From Rikenellaceae bacterium (lineage in GTDB: Bacteria; Bacteroidota; Bacteroidia; Bacteroidales; Rikenellaceae): 36,407 nt of DNA. Every line of letters begins with the position of its first letter. The first letter of the stretch is position 1. The notes beneath the pieces were generated by a model. That model was not told where the DNA came from. It worked only from the letters and a program-made list of their open reading frames with translations, and ran no database searches. Of this stretch, positions 24,272 to 28,441 are shown piece by piece. The stretch lies in NCBI GenBank assembly GCA_031262465.1, contig JAISHQ010000086.1:1-36407 (forward strand). Reading direction: 5' to 3'. The position numbers and the translations under genes were made by a program.

Positions 24272-26347
24272 ATGGACAACAAGACACAGCAAGGCACGAT
24301 TGGGGTGACGACCGAGAACATCTTCCCGATCATCAAGAAATTCCTCTATTCTGACCATGAAATTTTCCTGCGCGAGTTGATTTCCAACGCCGTGGATGCG
24401 ACGCAAAAGATGAAAACGTTTGCTTCGGTGGGCGAGTTCAAGGGCGAGTTGGGCGATCTGACGATCCGTGTGCAGTTGGACGAGGCGGCTCGTGTGCTGA
24501 CTATCAGCGACCACGGGATCGGCATGACGGGCGAGGAGGTCGACAAGTACATCAACCAGATCGCCTTTTCCAGCGCCGAGGCTTTCATGGAAAAATACAA
24601 GGATAGGACGAACATCATCGGCCATTTCGGGCTGGGGTTCTATTCGGCTTTTATGGTTGCCGACCGGGTGGAGGTGGTGACCCGCTCATGGAAAGAGGGG
24701 GCGAAAACCGTCAAATGGAGTTGCGAGGGGACGCCCGAATACACCTTGGAAGAGGTTGCCGACCGGTCGGAACGCGGGACGGACATCATCCTCTACATCT
24801 CCGAGGAGAGCCGCGAGTTCGCCGAGAAGAGCCGCATCCGCGAGCTGTTGGATAAATATTGCAAATTCCTGCCCGTGCCGATCGCCTTTGGCAAGGAGGA
24901 AGAGTGGAAGGACGGCAAGATGGTCGCCACGGACAAAGAGCTGATTATCAACTCCGCCGAGCCGATCTGGATCAAAAAACCGTCGGAGCTGACCGACGAG
25001 GATTACCGCAACTTTTATCGCGTGCTCTACCCGATGGCCGAGGAGCCGCTGTTCCACATCCACCTGAACATCGACTACCCCTTCCACCTGACGGGGATTC
25101 TCTATTTTCCGAAAATTCGGAACAATTTCGAGATTCAGAAGAACAAAATCCAGCTCTATTCGAACCAGGTCTATGTGACCGACTCGGTCGAGGGCATTGT
25201 GCCGGAGTTCCTGACCCTGTTGCACGGGGTGATCGACTCGCCGGATATTCCGCTGAACGTCTCGCGGAGCTACCTGCAAAGCGACTCGAACGTCAAAAAA
25301 ATTTCGAGCTACATCACCCGCAAGGTGGCCGACCGGCTGGCCGAAATCTTCAAAAACGAACGGGCCGATTTCGAGAGCAAGTGGGACGACCTGAAAATTT
25401 TCATCGAATATGGGCTGGTGACCAACGAGAAATTTGCCGAAAAGGCGGCCGATTTTGTGCTGGTCAAAAATACCGAGGGCAAATACTTCACCCTCAAGGA
25501 GTACGAAGAGTTGGTCAAGGCCAACCAAACCGACAAAAACGGGACGCTGGTTTATCTCTACACCAACGACACCGAGGCACAATACTCCTTTATCGAAACC
25601 GCTCGAGCCAAGGGCTATGATGTGTTGTTGATGGACGGCCAGCTGGACAACCACTTCATCGGCTGGGTCGAAAGCAAGAACCAAAACCTCCGTTTTGCGC
25701 GGGTCGATGCCGACGTGGTCGAAAAGTTGATCCCCAAAGAGGAGAGCAAGAACATGACGCTCAGTACCGCTCAGCAGGAGGAATTGCGCCCCGTCTTCGA
25801 GGCACAACTGCCCTCGTCCGACAAGGCCAACTACACCGTCAGCTTCGAGGCGCTCGACGAGAACGACCAGCCGGTGCTCATCACCCGCAACGAGTTCATG
25901 CGCCGGATGAAAGACATGGCGGCCACCAGCGGCGGCGGCATGGCCTCGTTCTACGGTCAGATGCCCGACAGCTACAACGTGGTGGTCAACGGCAACCACC
26001 CGCTGGTGATCGACACGCTGAATCAGATCAACGCAACGATCGGCGACGAACTCAAAAAATTCGACAAAAAAATCGACGGCATCGAGACGCAGAAAAAGAC
26101 GATCGACGACCGCATCAACGACCAAAAGCCCGAAGAGGTGGCCGAAGAAGACCGCCAACTGCAAGAAGAATTGGGCAAAAAACTGACCGAATTGACCGAC
26201 AAACGCACCCAAAAACTGCAAGAAGCCGGCAAAGAGAACAAGCTGGTCAAACAGATGATCGACCTTGCCCTGCTGTCGAACGGGATGCTCAAAGGCGAAG
26301 AACTGACCCGCTTCATCAAACGAAGCATCGAGCTGATTGAGAAGTAA
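24272..26347 (+). CDS. htpG: Hsp90-family chaperone HtpG
   Basis: A 691-residue ATP-dependent chaperone. The N-terminal ATPase domain (about 1-225) shows the GHKL motifs: ELISNAVDA with E35, N39 and D42, DHGIGMT near 75, and GHFGLGFYSAF. The middle domain (about 230-500) and a C-terminal dimerisation domain (about 505-691) follow. A long charged helical stretch (about 590-670, rich in K, E, D and Q) is visible near the end. HtpG helps fold client proteins under stress in the cytoplasm. The first helix of a structured element starts 11 bases after the stop codon. Confidence 0.97.
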   Translation: MDNKTQQGTIGVTTENIFPIIKKFLYSDHEIFLRELISNAVDATQKMKTFASVGEFKGELGDLTIRVQLDEAARVLTISDHGIGMTGEEVDKYINQIAFSSAEAFMEKYKDRTNIIGHFGLGFYSAFMVADRVEVVTRSWKEGAKTVKWSCEGTPEYTLEEVADRSERGTDIILYISEESREFAEKSRIRELLDKYCKFLPVPIAFGKEEEWKDGKMVATDKELIINSAEPIWIKKPSELTDEDYRNFYRVLYPMAEEPLFHIHLNIDYPFHLTGILYFPKIRNNFEIQKNKIQLYSNQVYVTDSVEGIVPEFLTLLHGVIDSPDIPLNVSRSYLQSDSNVKKISSYITRKVADRLAEIFKNERADFESKWDDLKIFIEYGLVTNEKFAEKAADFVLVKNTEGKYFTLKEYEELVKANQTDKNGTLVYLYTNDTEAQYSFIETARAKGYDVLLMDGQLDNHFIGWVESKNQNLRFARVDADVVEKLIPKEESKNMTLSTAQQEELRPVFEAQLPSSDKANYTVSFEALDENDQPVLITRNEFMRRMKDMAATSGGGMASFYGQMPDSYNVVVNGNHPLVIDTLNQINATIGDELKKFDKKIDGIETQKKTIDDRINDQKPEEVAEEDRQLQEELGKKLTELTDKRTQKLQEAGKENKLVKQMIDLALLSNGMLKGEELTRFIKRSIELIEK

Positions 26348-26358
26348 CCGCCTTTGAC

Positions 26359-26557
26359 TGCCGCTTTTAGAAAGCGGCACAAATCGTCGCCTTTTGTAAA
26401 AGGCGACACCGAAAACTTTTCTGCTTCGGCTTGCAGGGAGATCATCCCTTCAGGACTTCGTTTTATACCGTATTCCCCGGCCTATCAAGCGAGCTTGAGC
26501 CGGGGAATACTGCATAAAACGCATTCGCCCACAGGCGAATGTGGTCTCCCTGAAAAC
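26359..26557 (+). ncRNA. structured element copy A, in the htpG 3' region
   Basis: A densely folded stretch. Helices: P0 26359-26367/26371-26379 (loop TAG); P1 26386-26395/26398-26407; closing P2 26434-26443/26543-26552 (10 bp, one G-U). Inside P2 are P3 26459-26466/26514-26521, P4 26470-26481/26499-26510 (12 bp), P5 26486-26490/26493-26497 and P6 26522-26529/26534-26541. A second copy, inverted, lies at 26683-26876. Stems P0, P1, P3 and P4 differ in sequence between copies yet stay paired. P0 or P1 may also end htpG transcription, although the T-runs are in the stems and not after them. I do not recognise the family. An alternative is a DNA-level palindromic mobile element. Confidence 0.6.
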
Positions 26558-26682
26558 ACAATTGCATTTGCGTTTTGTCTGCATCTTCAGACAAATAGAG
26601 AAACGAAATGGGTTCCTCAGAAGACCACATTTTGCAGAAATTTTAATATCATAAGAAGCCTTAATAAGCTGTTGTCGAATGA
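26558..26682. other. spacer between the two structured elements
   Basis: AT-richer spacer with no gene. It holds a hairpin TTTGTCTG (26574-26581)/CAGACAAA (26588-26595). On the minus strand, around 26632-26611, lies a stretch resembling the element tail (AATGTGGTCT then a CTGAGGAAC-like end), possibly a worn third fragment. Confidence 0.45.
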
Positions 26683-26876
26683 GTTTTCAGGGCGATCACA
26701 TTCGCCCCTCGGGCGAATGCGTCTTGTTTTTCATGTCCCGCCCCAAGCTCGCTTGGAGGGCAAAGGGACATGGAAAGCAAGACGAAGTTCCTGAAAGGAA
26801 TGATCGTCCTGCAAAGACAAGCATAAAAGTTTTTGGGGCGGCTTTTTACAAAAAGCCGCGATGGTTCTCTAAGAAC
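26683..26876 (-). ncRNA. structured element copy B, in the antiporter 3' region
   Basis: Inverted, diverged copy of the element at 26359-26557. Plus-strand helix positions: P0 26864-26868/26872-26876 (TAG loop on the minus strand); P1 26838-26847/26850-26859; P2 26688-26697/26802-26811 (9 of 10 pairs on the minus-strand RNA); P3 26720-26726/26778-26784; P4 26732-26739/26765-26772; P5 26743-26748/26751-26756; P6 26699-26707/26711-26719. The strings AAAACTTTT, TTGCAGG, GATCAT, CTTCGT, CAAGCGAGCTTG, GCATTCGCC and CCCTGAAAAC are shared in the same order. It lies downstream of the antiporter stop codon, in that gene's sense direction. Confidence 0.6.
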
Positions 26877-26902: not shown

Positions 26903-28408
26903 TTACTCGTTTTTCTCGATGTAATAGTCGTTGCCCAGGCCTAATTGTTCGTAGACTTTGCGGAGTTCTTCTTCGTTGTCGGAGATGACGAGGAGTTTGT
27001 CGCCCGGCTTGAGTTTGGTTTGGCCTTTGGGCACAAAATAGCGGTCGTCGCGTTTGACCATCACCACCAACGTGTTGTCGGGCAGGGGCATATACATCAG
27101 CTGGCATCCGCCCGCGAGCATGGTGGGTGTCACCGTAATTTCGGACATCGACGATTTGATCTGTTCGGGCAGGTCCATGTTGAACTCCTTTTCGCGCGGC
27201 TCTTTCTCGGCCAGTCCGAGTGCTTCGGCCAGCAGGCCGACGGTCGTGCCCTGCACCAGGAGGGAGACGATGGTGATGAAAAAGACCACATTGAAGATCA
27301 GCGACGCATTTTCTATTCCCGCGATCAGGGGATAGGTGGCGAAGATGATGGGCACCGCGCCGCGCAGGCCGACCCACGAGATGTAGGTTTTGGCCTTGAA
27401 GCTGATTTTACGGAAGGGCAACAGGCTGGCAAACACCGAGGCGGGACGGCCGATGAGGATCATAAAGACGGCGACCAACAGCCCGATGCCAGCCACCGGA
27501 AGCAGGTCGCTGGGGTTGACCAACAGCCCGAGGGCGAGGAACATGACGATTTGAAAGAGCCAGGTGAAGCCGGAAAAAAAGCTGGCGATGGATTTTTTAT
27601 GCGGAATTTTGGCGTTGCCGACCACCAGCCCGCCGATGTAAACGGCCAAATAACCGTTGCCGTTGATCTGGTCGGCAAAGGCAAAGATAAAGAAGTTAAA
27701 AGCCAGCAAGAGAATGGGATAGAACGAGGCGTTGTCGATGTTGAGCCGGTTCATGCCCAAGCGCGCGGCGTGTCCCAAGGCGAACCCAACCACGGCACCG
27801 ACGCTCATTTGGATGAGAAATTCAAAGGCGGCTTTCCACAGGTTGCTGTCGCCCGCCTCGATCATTTGGATCAGCACAATGGTCAAGATATAGGCCATCG
27901 GGTCATTACTCCCGCTCTCCAATTCAAGCGTGGGGCGCAGATGCTCCTTCAGCCCCTTCTTTTTGGAGCGCAGGATCGAAAAGACCGAAGCCGAATCGGT
28001 CGACGACATAACCGCCGCCATCAGCATCGACTCGGTCATCGACAGTGCAGGCACTCCGGGGAAAACGCTTGAAACCCAATGGATAAAGAGGCCGGTCAGG
28101 ATCATGGTTAGAAACACCCCGACCGTGGCCAGCACCACCCCCTGCTTCCATATTGGCTTAATCTCGGCGTATTTGGTATCCATCCCCCCCGAGAAGAGGA
28201 TGATGCTCAGGGCGATAGCCCCGATAAACTGTGCCGTGCCGGGGTTGTTGAACTCGACAATATCCAACCCGTCGTTGCCGAAAATCATCCCGATGCCCAA
28301 AAAGAGGAGCAGCACCGGCACCCCCAATTTGAACCCCGTCTTCCCCGCCACAATACTCAAAAACAGCAACACAGAGCCAATTAACAGGATATGGTCGGCA
28401 TTCATCAT
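26903..28408 (-). CDS. cation/proton antiporter, NhaP2/CvrA type
   Basis: A 501-residue inner-membrane protein with about twelve to thirteen hydrophobic segments forming a CPA1-family exchanger (about 1-395) and a C-terminal cytoplasmic TrkA-C (RCK_C) domain (about 405-490, ending near GDKLLVISDNEEEL). The STDSASVFSIL and ESGSNDPMAY blocks are characteristic of the potassium/proton antiporter NhaP2 (CvrA) group. It should exchange K+ or Na+ for H+ and help control ion content or pH, with the RCK_C domain sensing a ligand. The start is the ATG at 28408 (MMNADHILL); a TTG five codons upstream could be read instead but is less likely. Confidence 0.9.
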   Translation of the reverse strand: MMNADHILLIGSVLLFLSIVAGKTGFKLGVPVLLLFLGIGMIFGNDGLDIVEFNNPGTAQFIGAIALSIILFSGGMDTKYAEIKPIWKQGVVLATVGVFLTMILTGLFIHWVSSVFPGVPALSMTESMLMAAVMSSTDSASVFSILRSKKKGLKEHLRPTLELESGSNDPMAYILTIVLIQMIEAGDSNLWKAAFEFLIQMSVGAVVGFALGHAARLGMNRLNIDNASFYPILLLAFNFFIFAFADQINGNGYLAVYIGGLVVGNAKIPHKKSIASFFSGFTWLFQIVMFLALGLLVNPSDLLPVAGIGLLVAVFMILIGRPASVFASLLPFRKISFKAKTYISWVGLRGAVPIIFATYPLIAGIENASLIFNVVFFITIVSLLVQGTTVGLLAEALGLAEKEPREKEFNMDLPEQIKSSMSEITVTPTMLAGGCQLMYMPLPDNTLVVMVKRDDRYFVPKGQTKLKPGDKLLVISDNEEELRKVYEQLGLGNDYYIEKNE

Positions 28409-28441
28409 CGTTTTTCTACACAATTAGTTACTATCACCCTA

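Follow-up and report, generated by a model that had tools for sequence, protein, structure and literature searches.

The two mirrored sequence copies at positions 26359-26557 and 26683-26876 are the arms of one member of an undescribed family of repeated elements, which fold into a conserved three-armed cloverleaf on one particular strand, and whose relatives in other Bacteroidales usually sit directly behind tRNA genes. The copies lie in a 36,407-nucleotide stretch (contig JAISHQ010000086.1, positions 1 to 36,407, hereafter the window) of the gut Rikenellaceae genome GCA_031262465.1, which is a 120-contig MAG of 93% completeness and 5.6% contamination. A sequence-only reading had proposed that the pair reflects selection on a fold, with compensated stem changes between two copies that share their order of helices, and that no named family has this architecture. 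Both proposals are supported by our analysis, although the two copies are not an isolated pair but one instance of a recurrent twin, and the selected strand is the complement of the one that had been folded. Our tentative interpretation is that the twin, about 540 bp long, belongs to a new family of modular, high-copy, non-autonomous dispersed elements that are recognized, either as transcript or as single-stranded DNA, by the fold of the outward strand.

The element lies between htpG (24272-26347, +; HSP90) and a sodium/proton exchanger gene (26903-28423, -; Na_H_Exchanger plus TrkA_C), which converge on it. Each arm consists of a cloverleaf, in which the long-range helix P2 closes P5, P3/P4 and P2a, followed outward by an AAAAGTTTT box and a P1-P0 hairpin cassette; P5 and P2a had not been included in the original description of the fold. 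In the case of arm 1, which reads on the - strand, the cloverleaf occupies 26434-26552 and is composed of P2 (26434-26444/26542-26552), P2a (about 26446-26456), P3 (26459-26466/26514-26521), P4 (26470-26478/26502-26510), the apical CAAGCGAGCTTG (26486-26497) and P5 (26522-26529/26534-26541). Between cloverleaf and P1 lies the box AAAACTTTT (26412-26420; AAAAGTTTT on the selected strand), which was invariant in two alignments, and it is followed by the P1 hairpin (26386-26407; GTCGCCTTTT..AAAAGGCGAC) and by the P0 hairpin (26359-26379), which is of the CCGC type with a 3-nt TAG loop on the + strand and forms the outer end of the element, 10-12 nt after the htpG stop codon. Arm 2 reads on the + strand and comprises a cloverleaf with a CTCG apical loop (26688-26811), the AAAAGTTTT box (26825-26833), the P1 hairpin (26838-26859; GCGGCTTTTT..AAAAAGCCGC) and, at the other outer end, a P0 hairpin of the GTTCT..AGAAC type with the same 3-nt loop (26864-26876). 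The central spacer (26558-26682) holds the two leaders and is conserved between twins; divergent promoters are possible there, though inspection by eye did not establish a bacteroidal promoter. Both copies fold far better than dinucleotide shuffles (z -9.6 and -6.4, with 0/200 shuffles as good). In searches of Rfam 15 the window contained only a tRNA, and the elements gave only weak hairpin look-alikes at E 0.005 or worse, far below cut-offs.

A search with copy 1 found at least 40 further places at 81-100% identity plus inverted partners, and a signature for P1 and its AAAACTTTT box occurs 119 times in 1.98 Mb, 59 on one strand and 60 on the other, with 0 in the reversed control. From fetched loci we extracted 80 distinct arms with a 3′ domain, of which one or two are degenerate. 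Many stand as tail-to-tail twins with P1-to-P1 distances of about 350-450 bp, or about 570 where another repeat has inserted in the middle; a repeat of the form CCTACCACCTCCCCCTCGCC ... GGAGGAG ... GGGGTGGTAGG has inserted in the middle of two twins. A further dispersed repeat family of about 240 bp (ATCGGTTCGTAGAACCGACCTCGGCAGTGGGGTGAAA ... CCGAAAACTTTTCTTTGCTACTTTCTTTTAGG), which shares the CCGAAAACTTTT string with the element, was seen downstream of the arm in five loci. Eighteen of 20 scorable twins join a class I arm (P2 with GAYCA) to a class II arm (P2 with AAAA), the window's twin and one other being I/I. P0 arms come in a few discrete types, and P0 type is tied to P1 type (p 3e-10), forming two cassettes, but is independent of cloverleaf class (p 0.41), so that the hairpin cassette and the cloverleaf are separable modules; tandem P0 units also occur. 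Two arms carry deletions close to helix junctions, the left arm of locus L072 and the arm at 1501-1668 of locus L057, and in the latter P2 runs straight into P5, leaving one long hairpin.

The variation in the stems is genuine and genome-wide. In 57 arms, 94.6% of cells in the full structure are paired and 25 of 53 pairs change on both sides, with 388 two-sided cells compared with 138 in column shuffles and 25-74 in structures whose partners were slid by 1-3 columns, which also drops pairing to 38-48%. The cloverleaf alone, on the selected strand, gives two-sided changes in 21/43 pairs and 186 cells against 63. Related copies inflate these counts, but the slid controls keep relatedness, and the different P1, P3 and P4 stem types are not small variations on one sequence. 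P1 alone exists in several fully compensated stem types (GTCGCC, GTCGCT, GCGCC, GCGGC, GCAAC), with 570/570 cells Watson-Crick.

To establish which strand is under constraint, helices were realigned with Watson-Crick rules only and the isolated non-pairs inside them were counted. Read in the originally proposed direction there are 107 A.C cells against 9 G.T cells (48 against 8 distinct contexts), and on the complement these are wobble pairs. Free energies agree, the complement being more stable in 75 of 80 arms by 9.0 kcal/mol on average (p about 2e-14) and in 16 of 16 loci of other species, though most of those loci come from one genus. Covariance model R2, which lacks P1, scores arm 1 at 113 bits on - and arm 2 at 127 bits on +, compared with 47 on the opposite strand in each case, although R2 was itself trained on the outward strand. 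The pair therefore faces outward from its center, in the order cloverleaf, P1, P0. On this strand the apical loop is CTCG or CTTG, and P2a loops are mostly GNA or GNRA. Mirror-image strand preference in the two arms is easier to explain by divergent transcripts than by one processed DNA strand, but single-stranded DNA is not excluded, since G.T is probably the milder mismatch in DNA as well. A fold that survives complete turnover of its stems across genera, with a clear strand preference, is strong evidence of selection on single-stranded nucleic acid.

Among 268 Rikenellaceae genomes, with family identity taken from named records of the same contigs, the P1 motif is in 41 and the reversed control in 1. 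P1-bearing loci of other species carry a downstream cloverleaf with unrelated stems but the same apical string, and covariance model R1, trained on this genome, matches them over its full length at 1e-25 to 1e-9, of which the P1 hairpin alone explains about 40 bits. The cloverleaf-only model R2 still finds 53 of 268 genomes in 6 genera, with a best E of 2.7e-13 outside this genus, and these counts are minima because few candidates per genome were scored. Of 28 loci read among the top relatives, about 20 have a tRNA gene (Ser, Val, Pro, Thr, His) ending roughly 10-20 nt before the cloverleaf on the same strand, and in a draw of 295 genomes of the order, 7 genomes outside the family had hits, with 9 of 10 hit loci directly behind a tRNA gene. 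R2 favors the apical string, so its conservation in R2 hits is partly circular, but the position behind tRNA genes is not. Seven of 20 tested tRNA-linked loci repeat exactly the last 17-22 nt of the tRNA at +187 to +242, starting at the T-loop, with about 8-13 nt in some others, and at one locus two successive repeats of the tRNA-Pro 3′ end lie 218 bp apart, suggesting tandem units behind one tRNA. A tail hairpin GGGATCAC...GTAATCCC (or close to it) follows the tRNA-linked cloverleaf in several families. In the genome studied here, of 60 element loci only one holds a tRNA gene, a tRNA-Met inside a wide twin, and of 30 tRNA loci only that one carries strong R2 matches; one tRNA-Thr is followed, by eye, by a degenerate look-alike and a GGATCACCGGAGGTAATCC tail as in other families. 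It is thus from relatives only that we infer the tRNA-linked form to be ancestral, the form with the P1-P0 cassette having expanded in this genus. The P1 hairpin with its ACCAAAAACTTTT flank also occurs many times in Acidocella and in some Clostridia, usually right after stop codons and without a cloverleaf, and this sharing by three phyla is unexplained.

With genes called by codon usage, none of 62 elements lies inside a called gene; twins are 11 convergent, 9 tandem and 0 divergent, singles are 11, 21 and 3, respectively, and on the P0 side the neighbor reads toward the element in 27 of 38 singles. The 3′ ends of three genes found in the sister species and of two in another genus lack the element, which points to recent, lineage-specific gain, but the data are few, and the comparison gave only partial orthologues with broken synteny and no clean empty site with both flanks. 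Longest direct flank repeats averaged 5.09 in 23 twins compared with 5.10 in control pairs, so that insertion with a target duplication is not shown here. Some twins, at loci L072 and L084, appear to sit inside the loop of an older hairpin (GTTCTTTT left, AAAAGAAC right), as if hairpin loops or T runs were insertion targets. No transposase, integrase or autonomous copy was found linked to the elements in this incomplete genome, and two wide inverted pairs contained host-type or no convincing genes. No protein was common next to tRNA-linked cloverleaves, where one Y1_Tnp and one serine resolvase were seen. Spread by insertion behind transcription units, and recognition by an enzyme supplied in trans through shape plus a few fixed strings (AAAAGTTTT, apical CAAGCTYGCTTG), are inferred, and we consider this the best, though still tentative, reading of the data. 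A stronger version remains doubtful but possible, namely a new class of bacterial mobile element in which a strand-specific cloverleaf, not a sequence or an encoded enzyme, is the unit of recognition, with an order-wide tRNA-3′-linked form that gave rise in one genus to a paired, outward-facing form with over 100 copies, mobilized in trans through its RNA or single-stranded DNA. The two settings provide a natural experiment on how a structured element turns into a genome-wide repeat.

Two alternatives remain live, though each appears less likely. The elements could be structured noncoding RNAs with a cellular function, each twin holding two divergent promoters and making two ~200-nt RNAs that end at P1/P0 and act in trans, as sponge or regulator, or protect mRNA ends. 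The strand-specific wobble and stability, the conserved twin spacer, the co-orientation with tRNA genes in relatives, and apical CUCG/CUUG and P2a GNA/GNRA loops, which are likely to be stable in RNA, are consistent with this possibility. However, more than 100 copies in one genome, and absence at the few gene ends examined in the sister species, fit a selfish element better; upstream regions of solo arms differ widely, no promoter was demonstrated, P5 plus T-tract in the tRNA-linked form looks like an early terminator, and GNA and CTTG loops are also stable in DNA. The other possibility is that the palindromic cloverleaf carries two facing hairpin plus T-tract terminators and acts as a bidirectional termination or 3′-end element, its copies having arisen by duplication and been kept for insulation. 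The location at 3′ ends agrees with it, as do the TTTTTGTTTT that follows P5 and the T-tract that follows P2a on the other strand in tRNA-linked relatives, and the P1 hairpins after stop codons in Acidocella and Clostridia. By inspection, though, arms of this genome appear to lack a run of T right after P0 or P1, several copies already sit behind a recognizable terminator, and simple terminators do not need a four-way junction, a fixed apical loop or strand-specific wobble.

Known transposition routes are less probable still. An ordinary MITE of a DDE-type insertion sequence, with the folds a by-product of long terminal inverted repeats, would account for the twin geometry with ~200-bp inverted arms, the many copies and the modular ends, but it is unlikely, because the arms of one twin belong to different sequence classes in 18/20 cases, so that pairing between arms is not what is kept, whereas the within-arm fold is; there is also no flanking direct repeat above control, and no parent element was seen among the wide inverted pairs read in this incomplete genome. 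Movement of REP/REPIN-type repeats by a RAYT (Y1 tyrosine transposase) is very unlikely and already largely refuted. The hairpins are extragenic and in inverted pairs, and one tRNA-His-linked cloverleaf in another Bacteroidales family has a RAYT-like Y1_Tnp gene about 265 nt downstream, but no Y1_Tnp was found in this genome or in 12 other Rikenellaceae carriers, several of which are 98-99% complete, while the control search was positive in 5 of 14 known genomes.

The family shows resemblances to several known systems, though we do not claim membership in any of them. REP, BIME and REPIN sequences with RAYT (PMC3733652, PMC3116915) are likewise palindromic, extragenic, often in inverted pairs and of high copy, but the present elements are much longer, at 200-540 bp, have a four-way junction and an AAAAGTTTT box in a unit of about 200 bp rather than a 20-40 bp palindrome with a GTAG or CGTC tag, and lack a RAYT in the carriers searched. 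Palindromic candidate structured RNAs of Bacteroidetes have been listed without function, e.g. HMP2_4078 and HMP2_4205 (PMC8040213), which are 109-132 bp, one of them near phage integrase domains, and might overlap this family. Integron attC sites may be similar in being recognized by the fold of one strand with freely varying sequence, although the fold here is a cloverleaf instead of one hairpin. Elements integrated in tRNA 3′ ends may offer another parallel, as relatives lie behind tRNA genes and part of them have a repeated tRNA 3′ end, but the units here are about 200 bp, have no integrase and use many different tRNAs for one fold. Nearest in behavior are the BOX elements of Streptococcus pneumoniae (PMC3049150), which are modular dispersed repeats of about 122 copies per genome, foldable as RNA, over-represented between convergent genes, variable in module number and attributed to non-autonomous mobility, and with which the present family has independently assorting modules in common; it differs from them in its phylum, its cloverleaf core with a fixed apical loop, its paired class I/class II inverted twins, its strand-specific wobble, its tRNA-linked relatives and the lack of a detected target duplication.
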